A stretch of DNA of 34,672 nucleotides from Planctomycetaceae bacterium (GTDB lineage: Bacteria > Planctomycetota > Phycisphaerae > Sedimentisphaerales > UBA12454), in NCBI GenBank assembly GCA_021371795.1, contig JAJFVK010000012.1, positions 1 through 34,672 of the forward strand. The letters are read 5' to 3'. The first letter of the stretch is position 1; every line of letters begins with the position of its first letter. Of this stretch, positions 519-9,761 are shown in pieces. A program made the translations under genes and the position numbers. The notes beneath the pieces were generated by a model. The model was not told the origin of the DNA, searched no databases, and was given only the letters and a program-made list of their open reading frames with translations.

Positions 519-3500
519 TTATTTATTTTCTGTTTTCTGGCAGTTGCCGCACTGAAGATTCGCAAGCTGCTGAATGAGATTAAATCTTTCAGCAACATCC
601 TGCGTTGCAAGTTTCATCAACTTTTCTGCAACTTCAGGTTTTGAATCCTTCAACATACGGTATCTGTTCTCGCTGTAAGCATAATCAACGAAATTAGCCG
701 TCGGAGCTTTCGAATCCAACTGCAACGGATTCTGGCCTGCTGCCTTCAAATCAGGATTGTATCTGTACAACGGCCAATAACCGCTTGCGACAGCCTGTTT
801 CTGATGCTCATAGCCATCGAGCAGATTGTAGCCGTGTGCGATACAATGTGAGTAAGCAAGAATAAGAGACGGGCCGTTATAGCTTTCCGCTTCGGCGAAG
901 GCCTTTACGGTCTGTGCCATATTCGCACCAAGCGCGACTCTGGCGACGTAAATATTTCCGTAAGTCATCGCGAGCATTGCCATATCTTTCTTGCCCATAG
1001 TTTTGCCTGCTGCTGCGAATTGTGCAACCGCGGCTCTTGGAGTCGATTTTGACATCTGACCGCCAGTGTTCGAATATACTTCCGTGTCAAGAACGAGAAT
1101 ATTAATATTCTTGCCGCTTGCAAGGACGTGGTCAACGCCGCCGTAGCCGATATCATAAGCCCAGCCATCGCCGCCAAGTGCCCATACGCTCTTGCGAACG
1201 AGATAATCAGCAACTGTTAAAAGCTGTTTGCATTCCGGACAGTCTTTTCCGCCGCAAGCATCTTTGAGCTTCTGAACTCTTGCTCTTTGTTTTTCAATTT
1301 CAGCCTGTGCCGGGTCGTTGGCAATCGCAGCCTGTTTTATTTCTTCGGCCAATGCCTTGTCAACGCAGCCTTTGCCTGCGGCAGCGGCAACTAACTCTAC
1401 CGCGAACTCTTTGAACTTATCAACTGTAAGTCTCATACCCAGAGCGAACTCCGCGTTATCTTCAAACAAGCTGTTGCTCCATGCGGGGCCTCTGCCGTTC
1501 TGATTTACAGTGTAAGGCGTTGTCGGCAGGTTTCCGCCGTAAATCGACGAGCAGCCTGTCGCGTTACCAATCATAGCTCTGTCGCCAAATAACTGCGTGA
1601 GCAATTTAACATACGGCGTTTCGCCGCAGCCTGCACATGCGCCGGAGTATTCGAACAACGGCTGAACAAGCTGGCTTCCCTTTACCGTATTAGTCTTGAA
1701 CAATGACGGGTCGGTATTTGGAATCGACAGGAAGTGAGCGTAATTTTCTCTTTCGGACATTCTTAACGGTTCCTGCAGAGACATATTAATCGCTTTTTTG
1801 CCGGTCGGCTGTTTGTTAGCGTCTTTTTCAACGCCCGGACAAGTCATAACGCAATTTCCGCAACCTGTGCAGTCTTCCGGTGCGACCTGAACGGTGAATT
1901 TCATACCGGCCAGTTCTTTGCCTTTCGCTTCGGCGCACTTGAATGTCTTCGGTGCTTTTTCAGCGTATTTCGCGTCATAAGCTTTAACTCTTATCGCTGC
2001 GTGCGGGCAAACGAGTGAGCACTGTCCGCATTGAATACATACTGTCGGTTCCCAAACAGGAATGTGAACGGCAATATTTCTCTTTTCGTATTGTGTTGTG
2101 CCGCTTGGGAATTTGCCGTCGATTGGCATCTTGCTGACCGGGATTTTATCGCCTTTGTCGGCAATAATTTCGCCGAGAACTTCTTTGACGAATTTCGGTG
2201 CATCGGCAGGAACGGCCGGCGGCATCTTTGTTTTGCTTGTTACTGAAGCCGGAACTGTAACTTCGTAAACTTCGCTCAAAGCCGCATCAACAGCGGAGTT
2301 ATTCAAATCGACAACTTTCTGGCCTTTTTTGCCATAGCTCTTTTGAATAGCTTTCTTGATCGCTTCGACTGATTTTTCAATTGGAATAATGCTGCTGATT
2401 TTGAAGAACGCGGTCTGCATAATCACGTTGATTCTCGAACCCATTCCTAATTTTTCAGCGATTGAAGTCGCGTCCATGCAATAGAATTTAACTTTCTTAT
2501 TGACGATTTGCGTTTGAAGTTCGATGGGCAATGTATTCCATATACTGTCTTTGCCGTGCATGCTTGTCATCAGGAATATGCCGCCGGGCTTGATATTTCC
2601 AAGCATATCGTATTTTTCGATGAAGCTCGAATTATGACATGCGACAAAATCAGCCTGACGAATCAGGTATGGTCTGCGAATTATGTTTTTGCCGAACCGA
2701 AGATGCGATACGGTTTTTGCACCGGCTTTTTTCGAATCGTAAACGAAATAGCCCTGTGCGTAGTTGTCTGTCAAATCGCCGATGATTTTGATTGAGTTTT
2801 TATTTGCGCCGACTGTTCCGTCCGAACCCAGACCATAGAACATAGCGGTATAAAGACCTTCGGCCGGAATATTGAACGAATCATCAACAATCAGACTCTT
2901 GTTAGTAACATCGTCTTCGATACCAACCATGAAATGGTTCTTCGGTGCACTTGCGTCGAGATTGTCAAATACTGCCTTTACCATCGCAGGTGTGAATTCC
3001 TTTGAGCCAAGGCCGTATCTGCCGCCGACGACCAGCGGATACTCTTTGAACGGTGCGTACTTGTCGGCCATTGCTTCGCCGATACCTGTGCGAACATCCA
3101 TATATAAAGGTTCACCAAGTGAACCCGGCTCTTTTGTTCTGTCGAGAACCGCGATTTTCTTAACTGATTTTGGAATCGCAGCCATAAAATCTCTGTTGCT
3201 GAAAGGTCTAAAGAGTCTGATTTTCAAAACACCGACTTTCTCACCTTTAGACACGAGATATTCAACTGTTTCGTGAGCTGTTTCGCCGCCGGAGCCCATA
3301 ATGATAATGATTTTTTCAGCATCAGGAGCGCCGACATAATCGAACAGGTGATATTGTCTGCCGACAACTTTCGCAAATTTGTCCATCGTTTCCTGAACGA
3401 TTTGCGGAACGGCATCATAAAATTTATTAACTGTTTCACGACCCTGGAAATAAACGTCCGGGTTCTGACTTGTTCCTGAAATCTGTGGATGGTCAGGACT

Positions 3501-4121
3501 CAATGCACGCTGCTTGTGAGCGGCAACCAGAGAATTGTCAATCATTTCACGCATCTGATCGTAACTAATCTCTTCAACCTTCTGTATTTCGTGACTCGTT
3601 CTGAAACCATCAAAGAAATGCAGGAACGGAATACGCGATTTCAAAGTCGCCTGCTGCGATATCAACGCCATATCCATAACTTCCTGAACACTTCCGGAAC
3701 ATAACATCGCAAAACCTGTCTGACGACAAGCCATAACGTCTGAATGGTCGCCGAAAATCGACAGTGCCTGACATGCCAGCGAACGCGCAGTAACGTGGAA
3801 CACGGTCGGCGTAAGTTCTCCGGCGATTTTATACATGTTTGGGACCATCAACAAAAGCCCCTGCGATGCGGTGAATGTTGTTGTTAAAGCACCTGCTACC
3901 AGTGCGCCGTGAACTGCACCGGCTGCGCCTGCTTCTGACTGCATTTCCGTAACACTTGGGATTGTACCCCAAATATTAGTCTTGCCGGCCGCAGTCTTGG
4001 CGTCAGCAAGCTCGCCCATAACCGAACTTGGTGTGATCGGATATATGGCGATGACTTCATTCGTGGCGTGGGCCACGTGAGCGGCAGCTGTATTGCCGTC
4101 AATCATAACTCTGTTCGACAT
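519..4121 (-). CDS. nifJ: Pyruvate:ferredoxin (flavodoxin) oxidoreductase
   Basis: This enzyme oxidatively decarboxylates pyruvate with CoA to acetyl-CoA and CO2, passing electrons to ferredoxin or flavodoxin in the cytoplasm. At 1200 aa it has the usual length of the one-chain homodimeric enzyme. It shows the pyruvate-binding YPITPSS motif at residues 27-33. Two 4Fe-4S clusters follow: CIQCGQCSLVCP near 695 and CTGCGNCVMTCP near 749. The cysteine-containing CAGCGETPY near 827 and the thiamine-diphosphate motif GDGWAYDIGYGG near 985 come next, then TEVYSNTGGQ. An AGGAG sits 7 nt before the ATG, which fixes the start. It is transcribed alone, from a likely promoter at 4345-4372 through an unusually structured leader of about 215 nt, and ends at the hairpin at 467-490. 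It suggests an anaerobic or facultative host. Identity is very secure. Confidence 0.98.
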   Translation of the reverse strand: MSNRVMIDGNTAAAHVAHATNEVIAIYPITPSSVMGELADAKTAAGKTNIWGTIPSVTEMQSEAGAAGAVHGALVAGALTTTFTASQGLLLMVPNMYKIAGELTPTVFHVTARSLACQALSIFGDHSDVMACRQTGFAMLCSGSVQEVMDMALISQQATLKSRIPFLHFFDGFRTSHEIQKVEEISYDQMREMIDNSLVAAHKQRALSPDHPQISGTSQNPDVYFQGRETVNKFYDAVPQIVQETMDKFAKVVGRQYHLFDYVGAPDAEKIIIIMGSGGETAHETVEYLVSKGEKVGVLKIRLFRPFSNRDFMAAIPKSVKKIAVLDRTKEPGSLGEPLYMDVRTGIGEAMADKYAPFKEYPLVVGGRYGLGSKEFTPAMVKAVFDNLDASAPKNHFMVGIEDDVTNKSLIVDDSFNIPAEGLYTAMFYGLGSDGTVGANKNSIKIIGDLTDNYAQGYFVYDSKKAGAKTVSHLRFGKNIIRRPYLIRQADFVACHNSSFIEKYDMLGNIKPGGIFLMTSMHGKDSIWNTLPIELQTQIVNKKVKFYCMDATSIAEKLGMGSRINVIMQTAFFKISSIIPIEKSVEAIKKAIQKSYGKKGQKVVDLNNSAVDAALSEVYEVTVPASVTSKTKMPPAVPADAPKFVKEVLGEIIADKGDKIPVSKMPIDGKFPSGTTQYEKRNIAVHIPVWEPTVCIQCGQCSLVCPHAAIRVKAYDAKYAEKAPKTFKCAEAKGKELAGMKFTVQVAPEDCTGCGNCVMTCPGVEKDANKQPTGKKAINMSLQEPLRMSERENYAHFLSIPNTDPSLFKTNTVKGSQLVQPLFEYSGACAGCGETPYVKLLTQLFGDRAMIGNATGCSSIYGGNLPTTPYTVNQNGRGPAWSNSLFEDNAEFALGMRLTVDKFKEFAVELVAAAAGKGCVDKALAEEIKQAAIANDPAQAEIEKQRARVQKLKDACGGKDCPECKQLLTVADYLVRKSVWALGGDGWAYDIGYGGVDHVLASGKNINILVLDTEVYSNTGGQMSKSTPRAAVAQFAAAGKTMGKKDMAMLAMTYGNIYVARVALGANMAQTVKAFAEAESYNGPSLILAYSHCIAHGYNLLDGYEHQKQAVASGYWPLYRYNPDLKAAGQNPLQLDSKAPTANFVDYAYSENRYRMLKDSKPEVAEKLMKLATQDVAERFNLIQQLANLQCGNCQKTENK

Positions 4122-4152
4122 AATATGCTCCTATAAGCTATTAAAATAAATA

Positions 4153-4291
4153 TACCCTTCAGGGTAGTAAATTCCCGCGATTAAAAAAGTACGTTTTTAT
4201 TCTCAAAGCACTTACCCGCGGATTAGCGGGAAAATTCAATCGCAAACAATATAACGGTTATGTTCGGCAACCTGTACTCCTTGCGGCTGCC
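4153..4291 (-). promoter_or_regulatory. Structured 5' leader of nifJ with mutually exclusive hairpins
   Basis: Read on the minus strand, the leader has a 7-bp stem GGCAGCC/GGTTGCC (4285-4291 with 4266-4272, one G-U) whose loop carries AAGGAG. Next come TTCCCGC (4226-4232), GCGGG (4215-4219), AAGTGC (4208-4213), GTACTT plus a T-run (4192-4183) and GCGGGAA (4172-4178). TTCCCGC can pair either with the near GCGGG or with the distant GCGGGAA. The distant pairing would enclose the weak AAGTGC/GTACTT stem with its T-run. A palindrome TACCCTTCAGGGTA lies at 4153-4166, about 30 nt before the ATG. The pairings are visible; a regulatory role is inferred. Confidence 0.45.
4223..4270 (-). CDS. Possible 15-residue leader peptide in the nifJ leader
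   Basis: AAGGAG at 4277-4282 (minus strand) stands 6 nt before a TTG codon at 4270-4268. The frame runs for 15 codons (MPNITVILFAIEFSR) and stops at a TAA at 4225-4223. That stop lies exactly in the loop between TTCCCGC and GCGGG, so a ribosome ending here would interfere with the competing hairpins. There is no run of one amino acid as in classical biosynthetic attenuators, although two ATA codons occur. A chance ORF is quite possible. Confidence 0.3.
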   Translation of the reverse strand: MPNITVILFAIEFSR

Positions 4292-4344
4292 TTGTGCATT
4301 GAGACTATCCACAATCTCGAAAATCCGAAAATTTTGAATAATTC

Positions 4345-4372
4345 ATTGTATATATATAAGGATAAATGGCAA
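4345..4372 (-). promoter_or_regulatory. Candidate sigma70-type promoter of nifJ
   Basis: On the minus strand TTGCCA (4372-4367) and TACAAT (4350-4345) are 16 nt apart, giving a predicted start of transcription near 4338 and a leader of about 215 nt. Both hexamers differ from the consensus by one base. Confidence 0.55.
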
Positions 4373-4437
4373 ATCTTTTTTTAGGATGCGTAAAATGAGT
4401 AAAATTTGTGCAAAGAAAAATGTGAACCCAGTTTGCT

Positions 4438-4608
4438 TTAGGTGTGCAACTGGCTTTTACCCTTGAACTCGCCGCACCAGTAGTCCTCTTTTACAAGCAC
4501 ATAATCTTCAACGAGTTTGGGGTATCGATGACATACGCCGTATTTTACTTCTGCCGGCTCGTTGTCCCACTCCCAAAACCTACATCCTTTGCATATTTCT
4601 AACGGCAT
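4438..4608 (-). CDS. Small four-cysteine (CxxC) protein, unknown function
   Basis: A 56-residue frame starts with MPLEICKGCRFW and contains GVCHRYPK and YWCGEF. The Cys pattern is CxxC, then one Cys beside a His, then one more Cys, as expected for a small metal-binding (probably zinc) knuckle. TAGGAG is 6-7 nt before the ATG at 4608. An in-frame ATG six bases upstream (4614) is too close to this Shine-Dalgarno sequence, so 4608 is the better start. It stands alone between the nifJ promoter and a dispersed repeat. I recognise the general type (short bacterial proteins with CxxCxFW, CHRYP and WCGEF-like motifs) but not a function. Confidence 0.75.
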   Translation of the reverse strand: MPLEICKGCRFWEWDNEPAEVKYGVCHRYPKLVEDYVLVKEDYWCGEFKGKSQLHT

Positions 4609-4749: not shown

Positions 4750-5565
4750 CTAATATCCCGGTCCCCAAAACGCGGGTGATTCGTTCGCCGTCGGCAAAGT
4801 CAGCTTCGGCCAAAATAAAAATTTGCCGGTCTTGTAATTCGACGGAATATATTTTTCATCGGCATCAACCTCTCGGCCTTTGATATTTCCGACGTGGCCA
4901 TCAACGTAACTTACATTCATAGACTGGCTATGATAAAAACCGCTTGTCATTCTGTGATGGCCGTCGCGTCTGACAGTAAAATCCTGTACATTCTTATGCT
5001 CGGCATCATAAATCTGCGAAGCGTAACTCGTTTCCGTCATCAGCATACAAGATGACGGCTGCGGGATTTGAGCGTAAGTGAATCCGCCTGCGGGCCCAAG
5101 TTTGAGCGGCGGGCCAGACCAATAAACCTCATTGTCGGAACAAAGGCCGTTCAATGCGTATGATGTAAGCGTTTTACCGTGAGGATAATTATAAAAGCCG
5201 GTCGGGTACGGGTCTTTGTCTTTGGGGCAAAACCATATCTTCGGCGAATTAGCGAAAATATCTTCTACCGTATTTATGCTTACTTTCTTTGAAACATACG
5301 GCAGGAGACTTACAAACCACGTTTTCGATATGTTATCTTTCGTTGGTTTGAAAAAAAATTCCCTTGCGGTTATAATTTGATTCTGCCAATCAACAGCATA
5401 AGCGCCCATCGCAATCGAAATCTGTCCCAAATTTTTCGCGCAGACAATTTTGGCGGCATTCGCTCTGGCACGATTCAGCACAGGCAGTAAAATCGCCAGC
5501 AGCGCAGCGATGACCGAAATCACCACGAGCAATTCGACCAACGTAAAAGCAAAACGTTTTTTCAT
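4750..5565 (-). CDS. Prepilin-type N-terminal cleavage/methylation protein with H-X9-DG motif
   Basis: This 271-aa protein begins MKKRFAFTLVELLVVISVIA. That is a type IV prepilin/pseudopilin leader cleaved before the F in FTLVELL, followed by one hydrophobic helix, so it should be exported and anchored like a pseudopilin. Near the C-terminus HSQSMNVSYVDG fits the H-X9-DG motif of prepilin-associated proteins that are abundant in planctomycetes. The open frame extends 44 codons upstream, but that part lies inside the previous gene; the prepilin leader fixes the start at 5565. The preceding gene's TGA ends one base before this ATG and no clear Shine-Dalgarno sequence is seen, so translational coupling is likely. 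It is the last gene of the rho operon. The exact partner or secretion machine is unknown. Confidence 0.88.
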   Translation of the reverse strand: MKKRFAFTLVELLVVISVIAALLAILLPVLNRARANAAKIVCAKNLGQISIAMGAYAVDWQNQIITAREFFFKPTKDNISKTWFVSLLPYVSKKVSINTVEDIFANSPKIWFCPKDKDPYPTGFYNYPHGKTLTSYALNGLCSDNEVYWSGPPLKLGPAGGFTYAQIPQPSSCMLMTETSYASQIYDAEHKNVQDFTVRRDGHHRMTSGFYHSQSMNVSYVDGHVGNIKGREVDADEKYIPSNYKTGKFLFWPKLTLPTANESPAFWGPGY

Positions 5566-5566
5566 A

Positions 5567-6436
5567 TCAAAAACCGCTCTGCCAGTTAATCGCCAATACG
5601 GCCAAATCGTTAAAATCCACGCTTTGACTATTATCAAAATCCGCCGACAAATTCTGGCCGCTCTGCCGCCATTGATTCGCGAACAACGCAAAGTCAATCA
5701 TATCGACAACATCATTCTCATTCAAATCGGCGACATTAACGCTTCGACAATCGATATCGACCTGATCAATCATCGCCGCCCCACCAACAGGATACGATGA
5801 ACTCGGCGGCAACTGAAAAACAGTCAGCTTTATATATTCCTGAACAGGCTGTTCATCAAATTTATATATGCCAGTAAATCTGTACCATCTGCCGGTGTCG
5901 CCTGTCGGTTCGCAGGCATCCACAACCGTTTCGCATATGGTCGTTACGCCCTGCGTATCAGTAAAGCCTGCATCGCGGGCAAGCTGAATATCATAATTTT
6001 TTGCACCATCATCGCTGCGGGCAAAATATGTCATTTGTATCCACAGGCGTCTTTGCCAATACTCGCATTGGCCGCCGTCAGGAACATAAAACGTCAGAGT
6101 CGTATCCGTCATACCGCCGTAAACACCTACTCTTGTTGACGACAAACCGCCCCTCGGCACATACATCCAGAATGCCAAAAATTCATTAGCATAATCCACA
6201 GCCTTCAACCGCGGAGTGTTGTAATCGTGAATGTCGGTGTCGCTGAACGAATTTATCCAGGTCGGTTCGCCATCCGGCTTTGCGGGAATATTTGGCTCGT
6301 CGTTTTTATCATGGCCAAAGTCCCAGCTCTGATGCGTATAATCCCGGCTCGACTGCCATTGCGGAGGATTAAAATAATCCGCGTGCAAAGTGCTGACGCA
6401 AATTAATAAAACAAATATTATAAATATCCTGTTCAT
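5567..6436 (-). CDS. Secreted protein with C-terminal dockerin-like repeats
   Basis: This 289-aa protein has a signal peptide (MNRIFIIFVLLICVSTLHA). The unrecognised body of about 200 residues is rich in aromatic and beta-type sequence and could be a carbohydrate-binding or jelly-roll fold. At the C-terminus are two EF-hand-like loops: DLNENDVVDMIDFALFANQW and DFDNSQSVDFNDLAVLAINW. This is a full type I dockerin-like module that binds calcium and may tether the protein to a surface partner. The ATG is 4 nt after the rho stop codon, with a purine-rich AGGTAAGAGA just before it, and the next gene follows after one base. Co-transcription with rho and a pseudopilin is clear from spacing; a functional link is not. 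Confidence 0.82.
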   Translation of the reverse strand: MNRIFIIFVLLICVSTLHADYFNPPQWQSSRDYTHQSWDFGHDKNDEPNIPAKPDGEPTWINSFSDTDIHDYNTPRLKAVDYANEFLAFWMYVPRGGLSSTRVGVYGGMTDTTLTFYVPDGGQCEYWQRRLWIQMTYFARSDDGAKNYDIQLARDAGFTDTQGVTTICETVVDACEPTGDTGRWYRFTGIYKFDEQPVQEYIKLTVFQLPPSSSYPVGGAAMIDQVDIDCRSVNVADLNENDVVDMIDFALFANQWRQSGQNLSADFDNSQSVDFNDLAVLAINWQSGF

Positions 6437-7541: not shown

Positions 7542-7705
7542 TAAATCAATTCTCCAAATTGTTTTTCAGGGAAAATTAGAAAAATATTTATCCGAAAAGA
7601 TGCAGAGACTTGCACGCCGCAGGCGAGGTCAGATCCCTCCGCTCGCATTTTTTTGGATGTGTTCTTTTAAATAGGTAAACGTCTCTAATTATTTATTCAG
7701 TATTT
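7542..7705. other. Short intergenic region with GC-rich hairpin repeat-like segment
   Basis: Between the AT-rich three-gene unit and rho lies a GC-rich stretch (about 7612-7651) with GCGAG/CTCGC complementarity, next to seven T on the plus strand. Read on the minus strand it could act as a terminator-like hairpin for the upstream unit, but the T-run is on the wrong side. It looks like another intergenic repeat copy. Confidence 0.35.
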
Positions 7706-8338
7706 TTATTTTTGCCAATCATACCTGCTTACTGTTGGATCATTTTTGGAATAGATATCCATCTCTTCTTTACTAAGTGGGTACCATTCATCATACGCAT
7801 ATCTTCGATAAAAATGAGCCAGGCGTTCTCTGAAATGGTCATTTGCAACAGGTTTCAAACAGCCTTTACGTAACTTAATAAACATTACAAGGTCATCTCG
7901 CAATACACGTATCGTGTTTAAAAAATCTACAGCCATTCTTTTGTCAAACCCTAGTTTATTATCCGGAGGTAGATAAAACCATTTTAACTTCCACCGAGCG
8001 TGTTGCGTTATGATACTAATCATACTGCTTAATTTAATAGCAGTAGCTGCATTTTTTTCAACTTGATCAAACTCTTTAATTTCACAAAGTGTAATCGATT
8101 CTCCCCAACGCGTATCACAATTTTGACTGACAACTATAGCAGGAACCGGTAAAACAGATAAAACTGTTGGGGTAGGTTCTTTCTTATCCCAAATAGCATC
8201 CCAAGGGGTGTTTATAATATCATTAGAAGGTTCTATTACTGCTAAACCCGTTGCAAGCTCAATTTGTACTTTGGGAATACCTAAAAAAATATCACCCTGT
8301 CTAATAGGCTTATCTTCTTTAGGAAATTCATATATCAT
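7706..8338 (-). CDS. Unknown protein with SQNCD motif, third gene of a TIGR04255 unit
   Basis: This 210-aa soluble protein has no signal peptide or membrane segment. It has an acidic N-terminus (RQGDIFLGIPKV), a central hydrophobic strand leading to VVSQNCDTRWGE near residues 69-80, and a basic, aromatic C-terminal third. I do not recognise the family with certainty. The SQNCD element beside a hydrophobic strand resembles short proteins found next to accessory or defence-like genes, but this is only an impression. It starts 13 nt after the preceding gene, so it is the last member of the three-gene unit, and it shares that unit's low GC. Transfer from elsewhere is plausible. Confidence 0.72.
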   Translation of the reverse strand: MIYEFPKEDKPIRQGDIFLGIPKVQIELATGLAVIEPSNDIINTPWDAIWDKKEPTPTVLSVLPVPAIVVSQNCDTRWGESITLCEIKEFDQVEKNAATAIKLSSMISIITQHARWKLKWFYLPPDNKLGFDKRMAVDFLNTIRVLRDDLVMFIKLRKGCLKPVANDHFRERLAHFYRRYAYDEWYPLSKEEMDIYSKNDPTVSRYDWQK

Positions 8339-8351
8339 TATTCATCACCAA

Positions 8352-8672
8352 TTAAATTTCACTATCTTCATTTTCTCTTAAAAAAATTTCATGACGTTTT
8401 TGCGATCTTTTGGCAGCGTTCATCGCCATTCTACGAGCTTGTTCTAACGTTATTTTATATCTTGCGGATACTACATAAGTATTAAAAACTTCACTGTGAA
8501 CTTCAGGTTGCACAGTCAATACATCTGATATTTCAGCATTAGTTGAACAAGAAGACATTTTGTAAAGTTCTTCAGGTGGTACTTTTATAACATTCTTTTC
8601 TATATTGCTTGCTACAGGAGCGGAAGATATATCATCCTTTTTTAAGTCTGAACTATTGATGTCTTTATCCAT
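8352..8672 (-). CDS. Small unknown protein, middle gene of a TIGR04255 unit
   Basis: This 106-aa hydrophilic protein has a disordered, Ser/Asp/Lys-rich N-terminal half. The C-terminal helix is strongly charged (near residues 73-100, with YKITLEQARRMAMNAAKRSQ). No family is recognised. The helix could bind a partner or nucleic acid; such a layout is common in antitoxin-like or adaptor proteins, but nothing here proves that. Its ATG overlaps the end of the upstream TIGR04255 gene by 8 nt, so translation is probably coupled. Base composition is as AT-rich as its neighbours. Confidence 0.65.
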   Translation of the reverse strand: MDKDINSSDLKKDDISSAPVASNIEKNVIKVPPEELYKMSSCSTNAEISDVLTVQPEVHSEVFNTYVVSARYKITLEQARRMAMNAAKRSQKRHEIFLRENEDSEI

Positions 8673-9444
8673 TTCGTGAAAACTCCGTTCTCAAATCACC
8701 TTCAATAATATTTTGAAACCATTTATGAACTACGTTATGAGCCGAATCTATCCAAGTTTCGAACTTCTGTGGCATTTCATCAATATCATCATTTTCTGAC
8801 TTCAATATTTGTTCCCAAATCAATGCCGGTTTTCCTTCTCGTGTTCCAGTAGAAAAAGCCAAAGTGGCCATTCCTGCTGGTTGATGACATCTTAAAGACG
8901 TTTGCCATTTAAGACCAGTTGGCTTTTTTTCAAAATTTTCATCCTGAATTATAAAATTCGGCAATTTAACAGGTGTATGCATACTATCACTAATAAAATC
9001 TAAAATATTTACTTGAGAACAGTCTACTTTTACAGCATCTATATATCTTAATACAAGATTTTTAATTTTAAGTTCTTTGGGATTGGGATGTATTTCAAAT
9101 AAAGCATTTATAGCATTAATTGGCATCGGCTTAAATTTTTCAAAGGTTGTATATCCATCTGATTGATTGATGGTCATTATTCCAGGGCCTATTTGAATTA
9201 AAGGCCATGAATTTTCTGCAACACGAAAACGGTGTTTAACAACTGAACCAGTAATCTCGTCTGGTATTGAAGATGCCGGTAAAGCTTCATGAAATGGATA
9301 ATCTTTTTTTATCTTTTGATAAAAACTTCCGAGAAGCAATTGATAATAAGGATCGGGATTCTGTTCTGATGTTTTCTCCATTGCCCATCTTACTTCGACC
9401 AAAGCTTCTACAATGGGAGGATTCGGTAACTGTACTTCTGCCAT
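8665..9444 (-). CDS. TIGR04255 family protein, first gene of an AT-rich unit
   Basis: This 259-aa protein opens with NPPIVEALVEVRW (residues 7-19) and contains WPLIQIGPGIMTINQ followed by GYTTFEKF. These are hallmarks of the sporadically distributed TIGR04255 family, whose biochemical role is not established. It is soluble, without signal peptide or membrane segments. AAAGGA lies 6 nt before the ATG at 9444, and a very good promoter stands at 9476-9503, so it heads a three-gene transcription unit. The unit is clearly more AT-rich than rho on one side and the ABC-F gene on the other, which suggests horizontal gain. Family assignment rests on motif memory, not a search. Confidence 0.8.
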   Translation of the reverse strand: MAEVQLPNPPIVEALVEVRWAMEKTSEQNPDPYYQLLLGSFYQKIKKDYPFHEALPASSIPDEITGSVVKHRFRVAENSWPLIQIGPGIMTINQSDGYTTFEKFKPMPINAINALFEIHPNPKELKIKNLVLRYIDAVKVDCSQVNILDFISDSMHTPVKLPNFIIQDENFEKKPTGLKWQTSLRCHQPAGMATLAFSTGTREGKPALIWEQILKSENDDIDEMPQKFETWIDSAHNVVHKWFQNIIEGDLRTEFSRNG

Positions 9445-9475
9445 TTAATATCCTTTGTTTAAATAGGAATAATGC

Positions 9476-9503
9476 ATTATAACATAACAAAAGAAAAAAG
9501 CAA
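9476..9503 (-). promoter_or_regulatory. Promoter of the TIGR04255 unit
   Basis: On the minus strand TTGCTT (9503-9498) and a perfect TATAAT (9481-9476) are 16 nt apart, with the ATG about 32 nt past the -10. This is one of the best promoters in the window. Confidence 0.72.
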
Positions 9504-9761
9504 TCCCTCAATGCAAGAGTAATTGTAGCCTGAAAAAGGGGAAAAACAATAAAATTGTAAAAATGAAGATTTGAGATTTAAAATTTGCGATGCGAAATAT
9601 TGGGGCGGCAGAAGAAAACTATCGAGGATGCCCCCCCCCCCCCCCCGCAGGCAAGGAGTCTAAATTGGTATGGTCGGCAAGCTATAGATTTTAGTTACAT
9701 CTCTTCATCAAGATATAATTTTTTGGGGGAAAAGTTTATAAAAATTCTGTATAATGTCCCA
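9504..9761. other. Intergenic region upstream of the ABC-F gene
   Basis: This segment holds an AT-rich start (9540-9600), a GC-rich repeat-like part with the poly-C tract, and a TATAAT at 9750-9755 directly before the ABC-F start. A frame from 9585 is open into the ABC-F gene, but it runs through the poly-C tract (giving a Pro run) and has no homology-like features. I treat it as non-coding. Confidence 0.5.
9631..9646. repeat. Homopolymer of 16 C
   Basis: Sixteen consecutive C lie 115 nt upstream of the ABC-F start, within a GC-richer island of repeat-like appearance (about 9600-9660). Such tracts are prone to slipped-strand length change and to sequencing error. Confidence 0.9.

Follow-up and report, generated by a model that had tools for sequence, protein, structure and literature searches.

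Does the three-gene unit that lies between a rho gene and an ABC-F ATPase gene in a planctomycete genome form one functional system, and what would such a system do? The unit was analysed within a stretch of DNA of 34,672 nucleotides, which is referred to as the window. It consists of a gene for a TIGR04255 protein (gene 1), a gene for a 106-aa protein (gene 2), and a gene for a 210-aa protein (gene 3). A sequence-only reading of the window had proposed that the three genes could be one functional system, with a toxin-antitoxin-like system among the options. The unit is probably a mobile toxin-antitoxin module with three parts, and the TIGR04255 protein would serve the antitoxin much as a SecB-like chaperone serves the antitoxin of a TAC system.

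According to the available part of PMC5105189, the antitoxins of TAC systems carry a short stretch that makes them depend on a dedicated chaperone, and antitoxins that work without a chaperone lack this stretch. The available part of PMC11618068 describes CmdTAC, whose chaperone also senses a phage capsid protein. Other three-component ideas are discussed in PMC2701414 (2009), as far as its available part goes. TIGR04255 and DUF6941 were not found mentioned in the literature searched. Judged by titles and the beginnings of abstracts, none of the literature found on tripartite or three-component systems describes the TIGR04255 class; many subscription papers lie outside the scope of that search.

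The three-gene unit in the window

The positions of the three genes and of the other features of the unit are shown in Table 1. All three open reading frames named by the sequence-only reading are present on the minus strand. The protein of gene 1 is a member of TIGR04255 as had been claimed, with a match of 117.9 bits (E 6.2e-34) at a cut-off of 30 in which its residues 5-255 align to positions 1-251 of the 252-position profile. The proteins of genes 2 and 3 match no family in Pfam or NCBIfam, where the best Pfam match had an E of 0.068, below the cut-off; neither partner is thus placed in a housekeeping family by this search. No PADLOC model of a known anti-phage system is matched by any of the three proteins.

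Table 1. Features of the three-gene unit. Positions are those of the window.
Feature	Position	Strand	Basis or remark
Gene 1, TIGR04255 family, 259 aa	8665-9444	-	NCBIfam match; proposed antitoxin helper (chaperone-like)
Gene 2, 106-aa protein, proposed modular antitoxin	8352-8672	-	ORF between gene 1 and gene 3
Gene 3, 210-aa QGD...QxCD protein, proposed toxin (MazF/CcdB fold)	7706-8338	-	ORF and predicted model
Proposed toxin-binding tail ITLEQARRMAMNAAKRSQKRHEIFLRENEDSEI, C-terminal ~35 residues of gene 2	within 8352-8672	-	Tail similarity to relatives
Inserted DNA missing from relatives, between rho and the ABC-F ATPase gene	7586-9730 (approximate)		Ends placed by eye
TATAAT (9476-9481) overlapping the perfect 12-nt palindrome ATAATGCATTAT (9469-9480)	9469-9481	-	Lies ahead of gene 1; might be a promoter/operator (lead only)

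The genes had been described as overlapping. This is true of genes 1 and 2, which overlap by 8 nt, and not of genes 2 and 3, which are separated by a gap of 13 nt. The small gene directly upstream of the candidate toxin gene in one operon is the layout of type II toxin-antitoxin systems. The described AT-richness is evident from the GC content, which is 0.35 in the inserted DNA and 0.45 in the remaining window; none of 283 equally long stretches has a GC content this low. The strong promoter that had been attributed to the unit was not recovered. The TATAAT sequence upstream of gene 1 has no good -35 box, the promoter scan called nothing there, and five promoter-like sites were found in the region against 9.9 in shuffled sequences. 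The palindrome that overlaps it would be expected by chance with a frequency of 3% in 100 nt. A run of about 16 C lies at 9634-9649, between the upstream region of the cassette and the ABC-F gene. Two further proteins were recognised by eye at 4750-6436, one that has a prepilin-type N-terminus and one that ends in dockerin-like repeats.

Insertion at an empty site

The cassette is flanked by rho on one side and by the ABC-F ATPase gene on the other side. The rho gene was matched in five of the 13 family genomes, including the genome of the window. In all four of the other genomes, which belong to the same genus, the site is empty, and rho and the ABC-F gene are adjacent and divergent. The gap between both genes is 113 nt in L158 and 85 nt in L160, compared with 2220 nt in the window. 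Neither a transposase nor clear terminal repeats that mark the insert were seen at the locus. The unit appears to be mobile DNA that was acquired by the planctomycete genome.

Co-occurrence of the three genes

The sequence-only reading had suggested asking whether the three genes co-occur elsewhere, and they do. Counting the window, the 210-aa protein or a relative of it is encoded at ten loci; a weak match (G267, at L004) with two in-frame stops is excluded from this count. All three genes are present in the same order in eight of the ten loci, and genes 2 and 3 stand together in all ten, the middle gene always upstream of gene 3. Gene 2 lies between the TIGR04255 gene and the toxin candidate in 8/8 trios. 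The order and spacing of the trio are the same in Planctomycetota and Actinomycetota. This shared gene order in other phyla, together with the site that is empty in four of four relatives, indicates that the unit is more than a chance assembly, and the proposal of one functional system survived both refuting conditions that the sequence-only reading had named, since the genes do co-occur and neither partner is of a housekeeping family.

TIGR04255 is missing at L007 and L008 (Acidobacteriota). The middle protein there has 63 residues and corresponds to the C-terminal tail only, compared with 106-143 aa in the eight trios. The QxCD proteins of L007 and L008 have an additional C-terminal domain, and a gene for a HerA-like ATPase, recognised by eye, lies directly downstream of the two-gene form of L008 (7256-8956).

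Two other genomes among 392 of the phylum carry a relative of the 210-aa protein, with one of these matches weak and dropped, as did four others among the 161 genomes of the order. The species genome collection contributed four loci (Acidobacteriota, Pirellulales, and Amycolatopsis). Plasmid records contain no relative of gene 2 or gene 3 and two distant TIGR04255 genes, one in a prophage with two small genes and one near VapC and Cas6. Phage records contain no relative of gene 1 or gene 3. Viral contigs contain no match to the trio's own families and nine matches to a distant QxCD family, of which eight are readable; the remaining locus (L134) is not interpretable and was excluded. The front gene of the eight readable loci encodes DUF6941 in four, TIGR04255 in three, and a 231-aa protein without assigned family in one. 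On prophage-like contigs (L129-L132, about 3035-4606), the DUF6941 gene is followed by a small gene 2 and then by a gene 3 of the QxCD family.

Predicted fold of the 210-aa protein

The AlphaFold2 model of the 210-aa protein was built from an alignment of 13 sequences that includes the distant members from viral contigs. The two branches of that alignment matched each other as profiles with a probability of 98% (E 6e-14). The model has a pLDDT of 84 and a pTM of 0.73. With VIA-align, all of the best 50 PDB entries are MazF or CcdB, with Z from 12.1 to 8.8 and an rmsd of about 2.5-4.2 over 94-121 residues. With Foldseek, the best match is a MazF (E 2.4e-4), and nearly all of the 50 chains listed are described as MazF or mRNA interferase. 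The 210-aa protein is therefore predicted from its model to have the MazF/CcdB toxin fold.

The family has a signature of its own. Q14, G15, D16, Q72, C74, D75, E171, and P187 are invariant in the 13 aligned sequences, where E171 is the Glu of the C-terminal helix. A link to MazF was not detected in sequence, neither with Pfam, including PemK_toxin (PF02452), nor by profile comparison, in which five MazF proteins of planctomycetes were matched with a probability of about 1% (E 0.05-0.13). The catalytic residues of MazF are the Arg of an RP motif and a Thr. The Arg-Pro of the sheet before QxCD is present in four of the 13 aligned sequences and is Leu-Pro in the window. Since the motif is not conserved, RNase activity of the MazF type cannot be assumed, and the chemistry of the candidate toxin may differ.

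TIGR04255 cassettes with different genes 3

TIGR04255 is present above the cut-off in 66 of the 392 Planctomycetota genomes, at 85 places, 77 of which were examined. In 63 of the 77 loci, the TIGR04255 gene is followed on its own strand, after 60-1100 nt, by a gene 3 that belongs to a recurring family. This fraction is a description of the loci, since the gene-3 HMMs were built from the same loci; the informative result is that no member of the gene-3 families was found elsewhere in the 619 kb. The 63 loci consist of PIN (10), MazF (1), QxCD (16), DUF7689 (5), small HicA-looking (3), and class B (28) genes 3; the labels HicA-looking and class B, like M48-like and VapB/MazE-like tail below, were given by eye or are presumptive.

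Ten of 83 loci were dropped from the tables of genes 2 and 3 because the gene chain was absent or doubtful (L058, L064, L073, L085, L087, L090, L092, L097, L109, and L117). Among the remaining 73 cassettes, gene 1 overlaps gene 2 in 66, and the distance from gene 2 to gene 3 is within 30 nt in 71. Pfam recognises PIN in eight and PemK/MazF in one of the 73 gene-3 proteins, and the assignments of five PIN proteins and the MazF protein were read protein by protein. A search of solved structures with the MazF protein of L062 gave no match. Different toxin families are exchanged at gene 3 beside TIGR04255 genes that are related to each other.

Fourteen of the 77 loci have no classified gene 3. At L087, L092, L097, and L109, a solitary TIGR04255 gene is followed by a gene for an M48-like peptidase without a gene 2. 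DUF7689 (Pfam, 5/73) is the gene 3 of L053, L054, L056, L057, and L066 and is a candidate toxin family. The genome of the window itself carries a second TIGR04255 cassette (L051, contig C8, 53934-54659), whose gene 2 encodes a 158-aa 'GWDG' protein and whose gene 3 belongs to class B.

The two parts of gene 2

The tail of the window's gene 2 is common to L049 (z 11.5). It also resembles the antitoxin-like protein of L007, which has 63 aa (z 4.2, reached by 0/500 shuffles). In some trios, gene 2 resembles the L007 tail only weakly, and the similarity is reached by 40/500 (L048) and 17/500 (L050) shuffles.

Relatives without TIGR04255 were sought for three toxins, and the gene upstream of each was read, with L145, L146, and L152 left out. 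The upstream proteins have 61-82 aa in L139 (PIN), L151 (MazF), L163 (PIN), and L166 (PIN), and no TIGR04255 was found in the flanks of these four loci. The tail of L139 matches that of the L075 PIN cassette (z 21.5), the tail of L151 matches that of the L062 MazF cassette (z 16.6), and the tails of L163 and L166 match that of the L072 PIN cassette (z 17.6 and 8.2); each match was reached by 0/1000 shuffles. Antitoxins of the same toxin therefore share their tail in these relatives, while for the window itself the corresponding value is only the z of 4.2 against L007. Most other PIN and MazF relatives have differing upstream proteins. The VapB tail gave matches of only E 0.9 in plasmids, the one inspected adjoining a peptidase gene, and one irrelevant match in genomes. 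None was found for the MazE-like tail in plasmids.

The N-terminal part behaves differently from the tail in L046 (QxCD) and L062 (MazF). Their TIGR04255 proteins are 68% identical and residues 7-71 of their gene-2 proteins are alike (z 12.7), whereas the tails differ and each tracks its own toxin. The N-terminal parts of L009 and L062 are also similar (z 5.1), and gene 2 of the window has no similarity to that of L046 (z -0.1). Taken together, the tail and N-terminal comparisons show for these relatives that one end of gene 2 goes with the toxin and the other with TIGR04255. Gene 2 is thus modular in its relatives, and the tracking of TIGR04255 by the N-terminal part is demonstrated in one clear pair, L046 and L062.

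A hydrophobic segment in gene 2 was considered as a universal mark of chaperone binding and was rejected, as it is missing in the window (maximum 0.59). A segment above 1.6 is present in 13/27 QxCD and 10/54 other cassettes, and in 11/81 gene-1 and 17/81 gene-3 proteins used as controls.

Alternative readings of the unit

The TIGR04255 protein could also be read as the DNA-binding autoregulator of the operon, which would replace the usual DNA-binding domain of the antitoxin in an otherwise ordinary type II pair. Its model is of moderate confidence (pLDDT 71, pTM 0.76) and has a duplicated alpha/beta fold. TATA-binding proteins are the best Foldseek matches in the PDB (E 2.3e-5, at a TM of only 0.28), early transcription factors are matched in the viral library, the palindrome overlaps the -10 box upstream of gene 1, and a DNA-binding family was not recognised in the window's own gene 2. 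However, the palindrome was not found upstream of the other seven trios, and the TIGR04255 proteins are mostly acidic, with a mean net charge of -2.7, -5 to -15 in the eight trios and positive values in 22 of 81 proteins. A Pfam HTH domain is retained in two of the 73 gene-2 proteins beside TIGR04255, so TIGR04255 is no simple substitute for a DNA-binding domain, and we consider the autoregulator unlikely. A guanidino or protein-arginine kinase-like enzyme, similar to McsB, that would modify the antitoxin or the toxin is suggested by VIA, which ranks arginine kinases, creatine kinases, and McsB highest (Z 9.9 to 8.0, rmsd 3.7-5.0, 180-197 residues). Against this stand the moderate confidence of the model, an identity of 3-9%, and the alignment of 72 TIGR04255 members, in which R133 is the only Arg above 70% and no set of phosphate-binding arginines is conserved; the other conserved residues are mostly aromatic or structural. 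A kinase is very improbable on this evidence. The mostly structural conservation and the mostly acidic proteins make an enzymatic and a DNA-binding role less likely, and we infer by analogy with TAC that TIGR04255 is chaperone-like rather than regulatory or enzymatic. Membership of TIGR04255 in SecB was not supported: SecB is not among the fold matches listed by Foldseek and VIA, and a comparison of the TIGR04255 sequence with the PDB gave no convincing match.

That three accessory genes merely travel together with no functional link would fit the lack of a named family for both partners, but it is scarcely credible beside the co-occurrence, namely the order and spacing that Planctomycetota and Actinomycetota share, the fixed spacing in 63/77 TIGR04255 loci, and the two-part gene 2. 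The trio may instead be a phage-defence system in which TIGR04255 or DUF6941 senses infection and frees the toxin, like CmdC in CmdTAC, a precedent for a chaperone as sensor in the available part of PMC11618068. This reading is compatible with a toxin-antitoxin module, and it draws on the cassettes of prophage-like contigs and on the gene 3 of other cassettes, which is weakly like the PADLOC candidate PDC-M32B (5/73, best 5.6e-6). The proteins of the window have no PADLOC match, however, and its neighbours are housekeeping genes (rho and the ABC-F ATPase gene) rather than a defence island, which leaves defence possible but somewhat doubtful.

Discussion

The toxin-antitoxin reading of the trio is well supported. 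The predicted fold, the interchange with MazF and PIN, and the antitoxin-like tails give strong support to the toxin-antitoxin-like option that the sequence-only reading had raised. In the proposed mechanism, the 210-aa protein would be the toxin, as a divergent member of the MazF/CcdB fold. The 106-aa protein would be the antitoxin, whose helical, charged C-terminal tail may sit on the toxin and block it. The TIGR04255 protein would be the dedicated helper of the antitoxin, which it would hold or stabilise by binding to the N-terminal part of gene 2. Loss or diversion of the helper would make the antitoxin fail and leave the toxin free to act. Counting against this reading are the lack of a sequence link between the 210-aa family and MazF, the Leu-Pro in place of Arg-Pro in the window, the dissimilarity of the window's gene 2 to that of L046 and its missing hydrophobic segment, the weak L007 tail similarity of some trios, the differing upstream proteins of most other PIN and MazF relatives, the absence of SecB from the listed fold matches, the 14 TIGR04255 loci with no classified gene 3, and the five of eight readable viral loci that have another protein in front.

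The trio resembles the SecB-type TAC systems of PMC5105189 and PMC11618068, as described in their available parts, in its three genes and in the helper that is kept while the toxin family varies. The helper-linked antitoxins also carry an extra stretch that is missing in helper-free copies, which are L007 and L008 here. Unlike in TAC, the helper is TIGR04255, which is not recognised as SecB, the gene order is helper-antitoxin-toxin, and the extra antitoxin stretch is N-terminal rather than C-terminal, so that it does not correspond to chaperone addiction as known from TAC. Since this stretch lies at the opposite end and a likeness to SecB was not found, the trio is not classed as a SecB-type TAC and is filed here as a novel variant among tripartite toxin-antitoxin systems.

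The trio shares the predicted toxin fold with the type II systems MazEF/PemIK and CcdAB, and a true PemK/MazF occupies gene 3 of L062 beside the close relative of the L046 helper. It differs from them in the 210-aa protein, which has no detectable sequence similarity and carries the invariant QGD / QxCD / E-P signature, in the antitoxin without a recognised DNA-binding domain, and in the third gene. VapBC systems are comparable through the PIN genes 3 of 10/77 TIGR04255 cassettes, whose tails recur in TIGR04255-free PIN pairs, whereas PIN is not the toxin of the window. The PADLOC candidate PDC-M32 is comparable to the class B cassettes, whose gene 2 is similar to the end of PDC-M32A and whose gene 3 is similar to PDC-M32B (E 0.003-0.05 apart from the best match); the resemblance is weak and is absent for the window's proteins. 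The class B cassettes with this resemblance include L094 and L071.

We tentatively suggest, at somewhat less than even confidence, that a large class of tripartite toxin-antitoxin systems has TIGR04255 as its hub. As an antitoxin chaperone (or sensor) outside SecB, it would have captured PIN, MazF, QxCD, class B, and DUF7689 toxins by swaps of the antitoxin tail alone, with DUF6941 as its stand-in in some prophages. If this is true, TIGR04255, a sporadic family without an assigned job, would acquire a role. Chaperone-style control of antitoxins would have arisen outside SecB, and several families without a known role (QxCD, class B, and DUF7689) would be predicted to be toxins.
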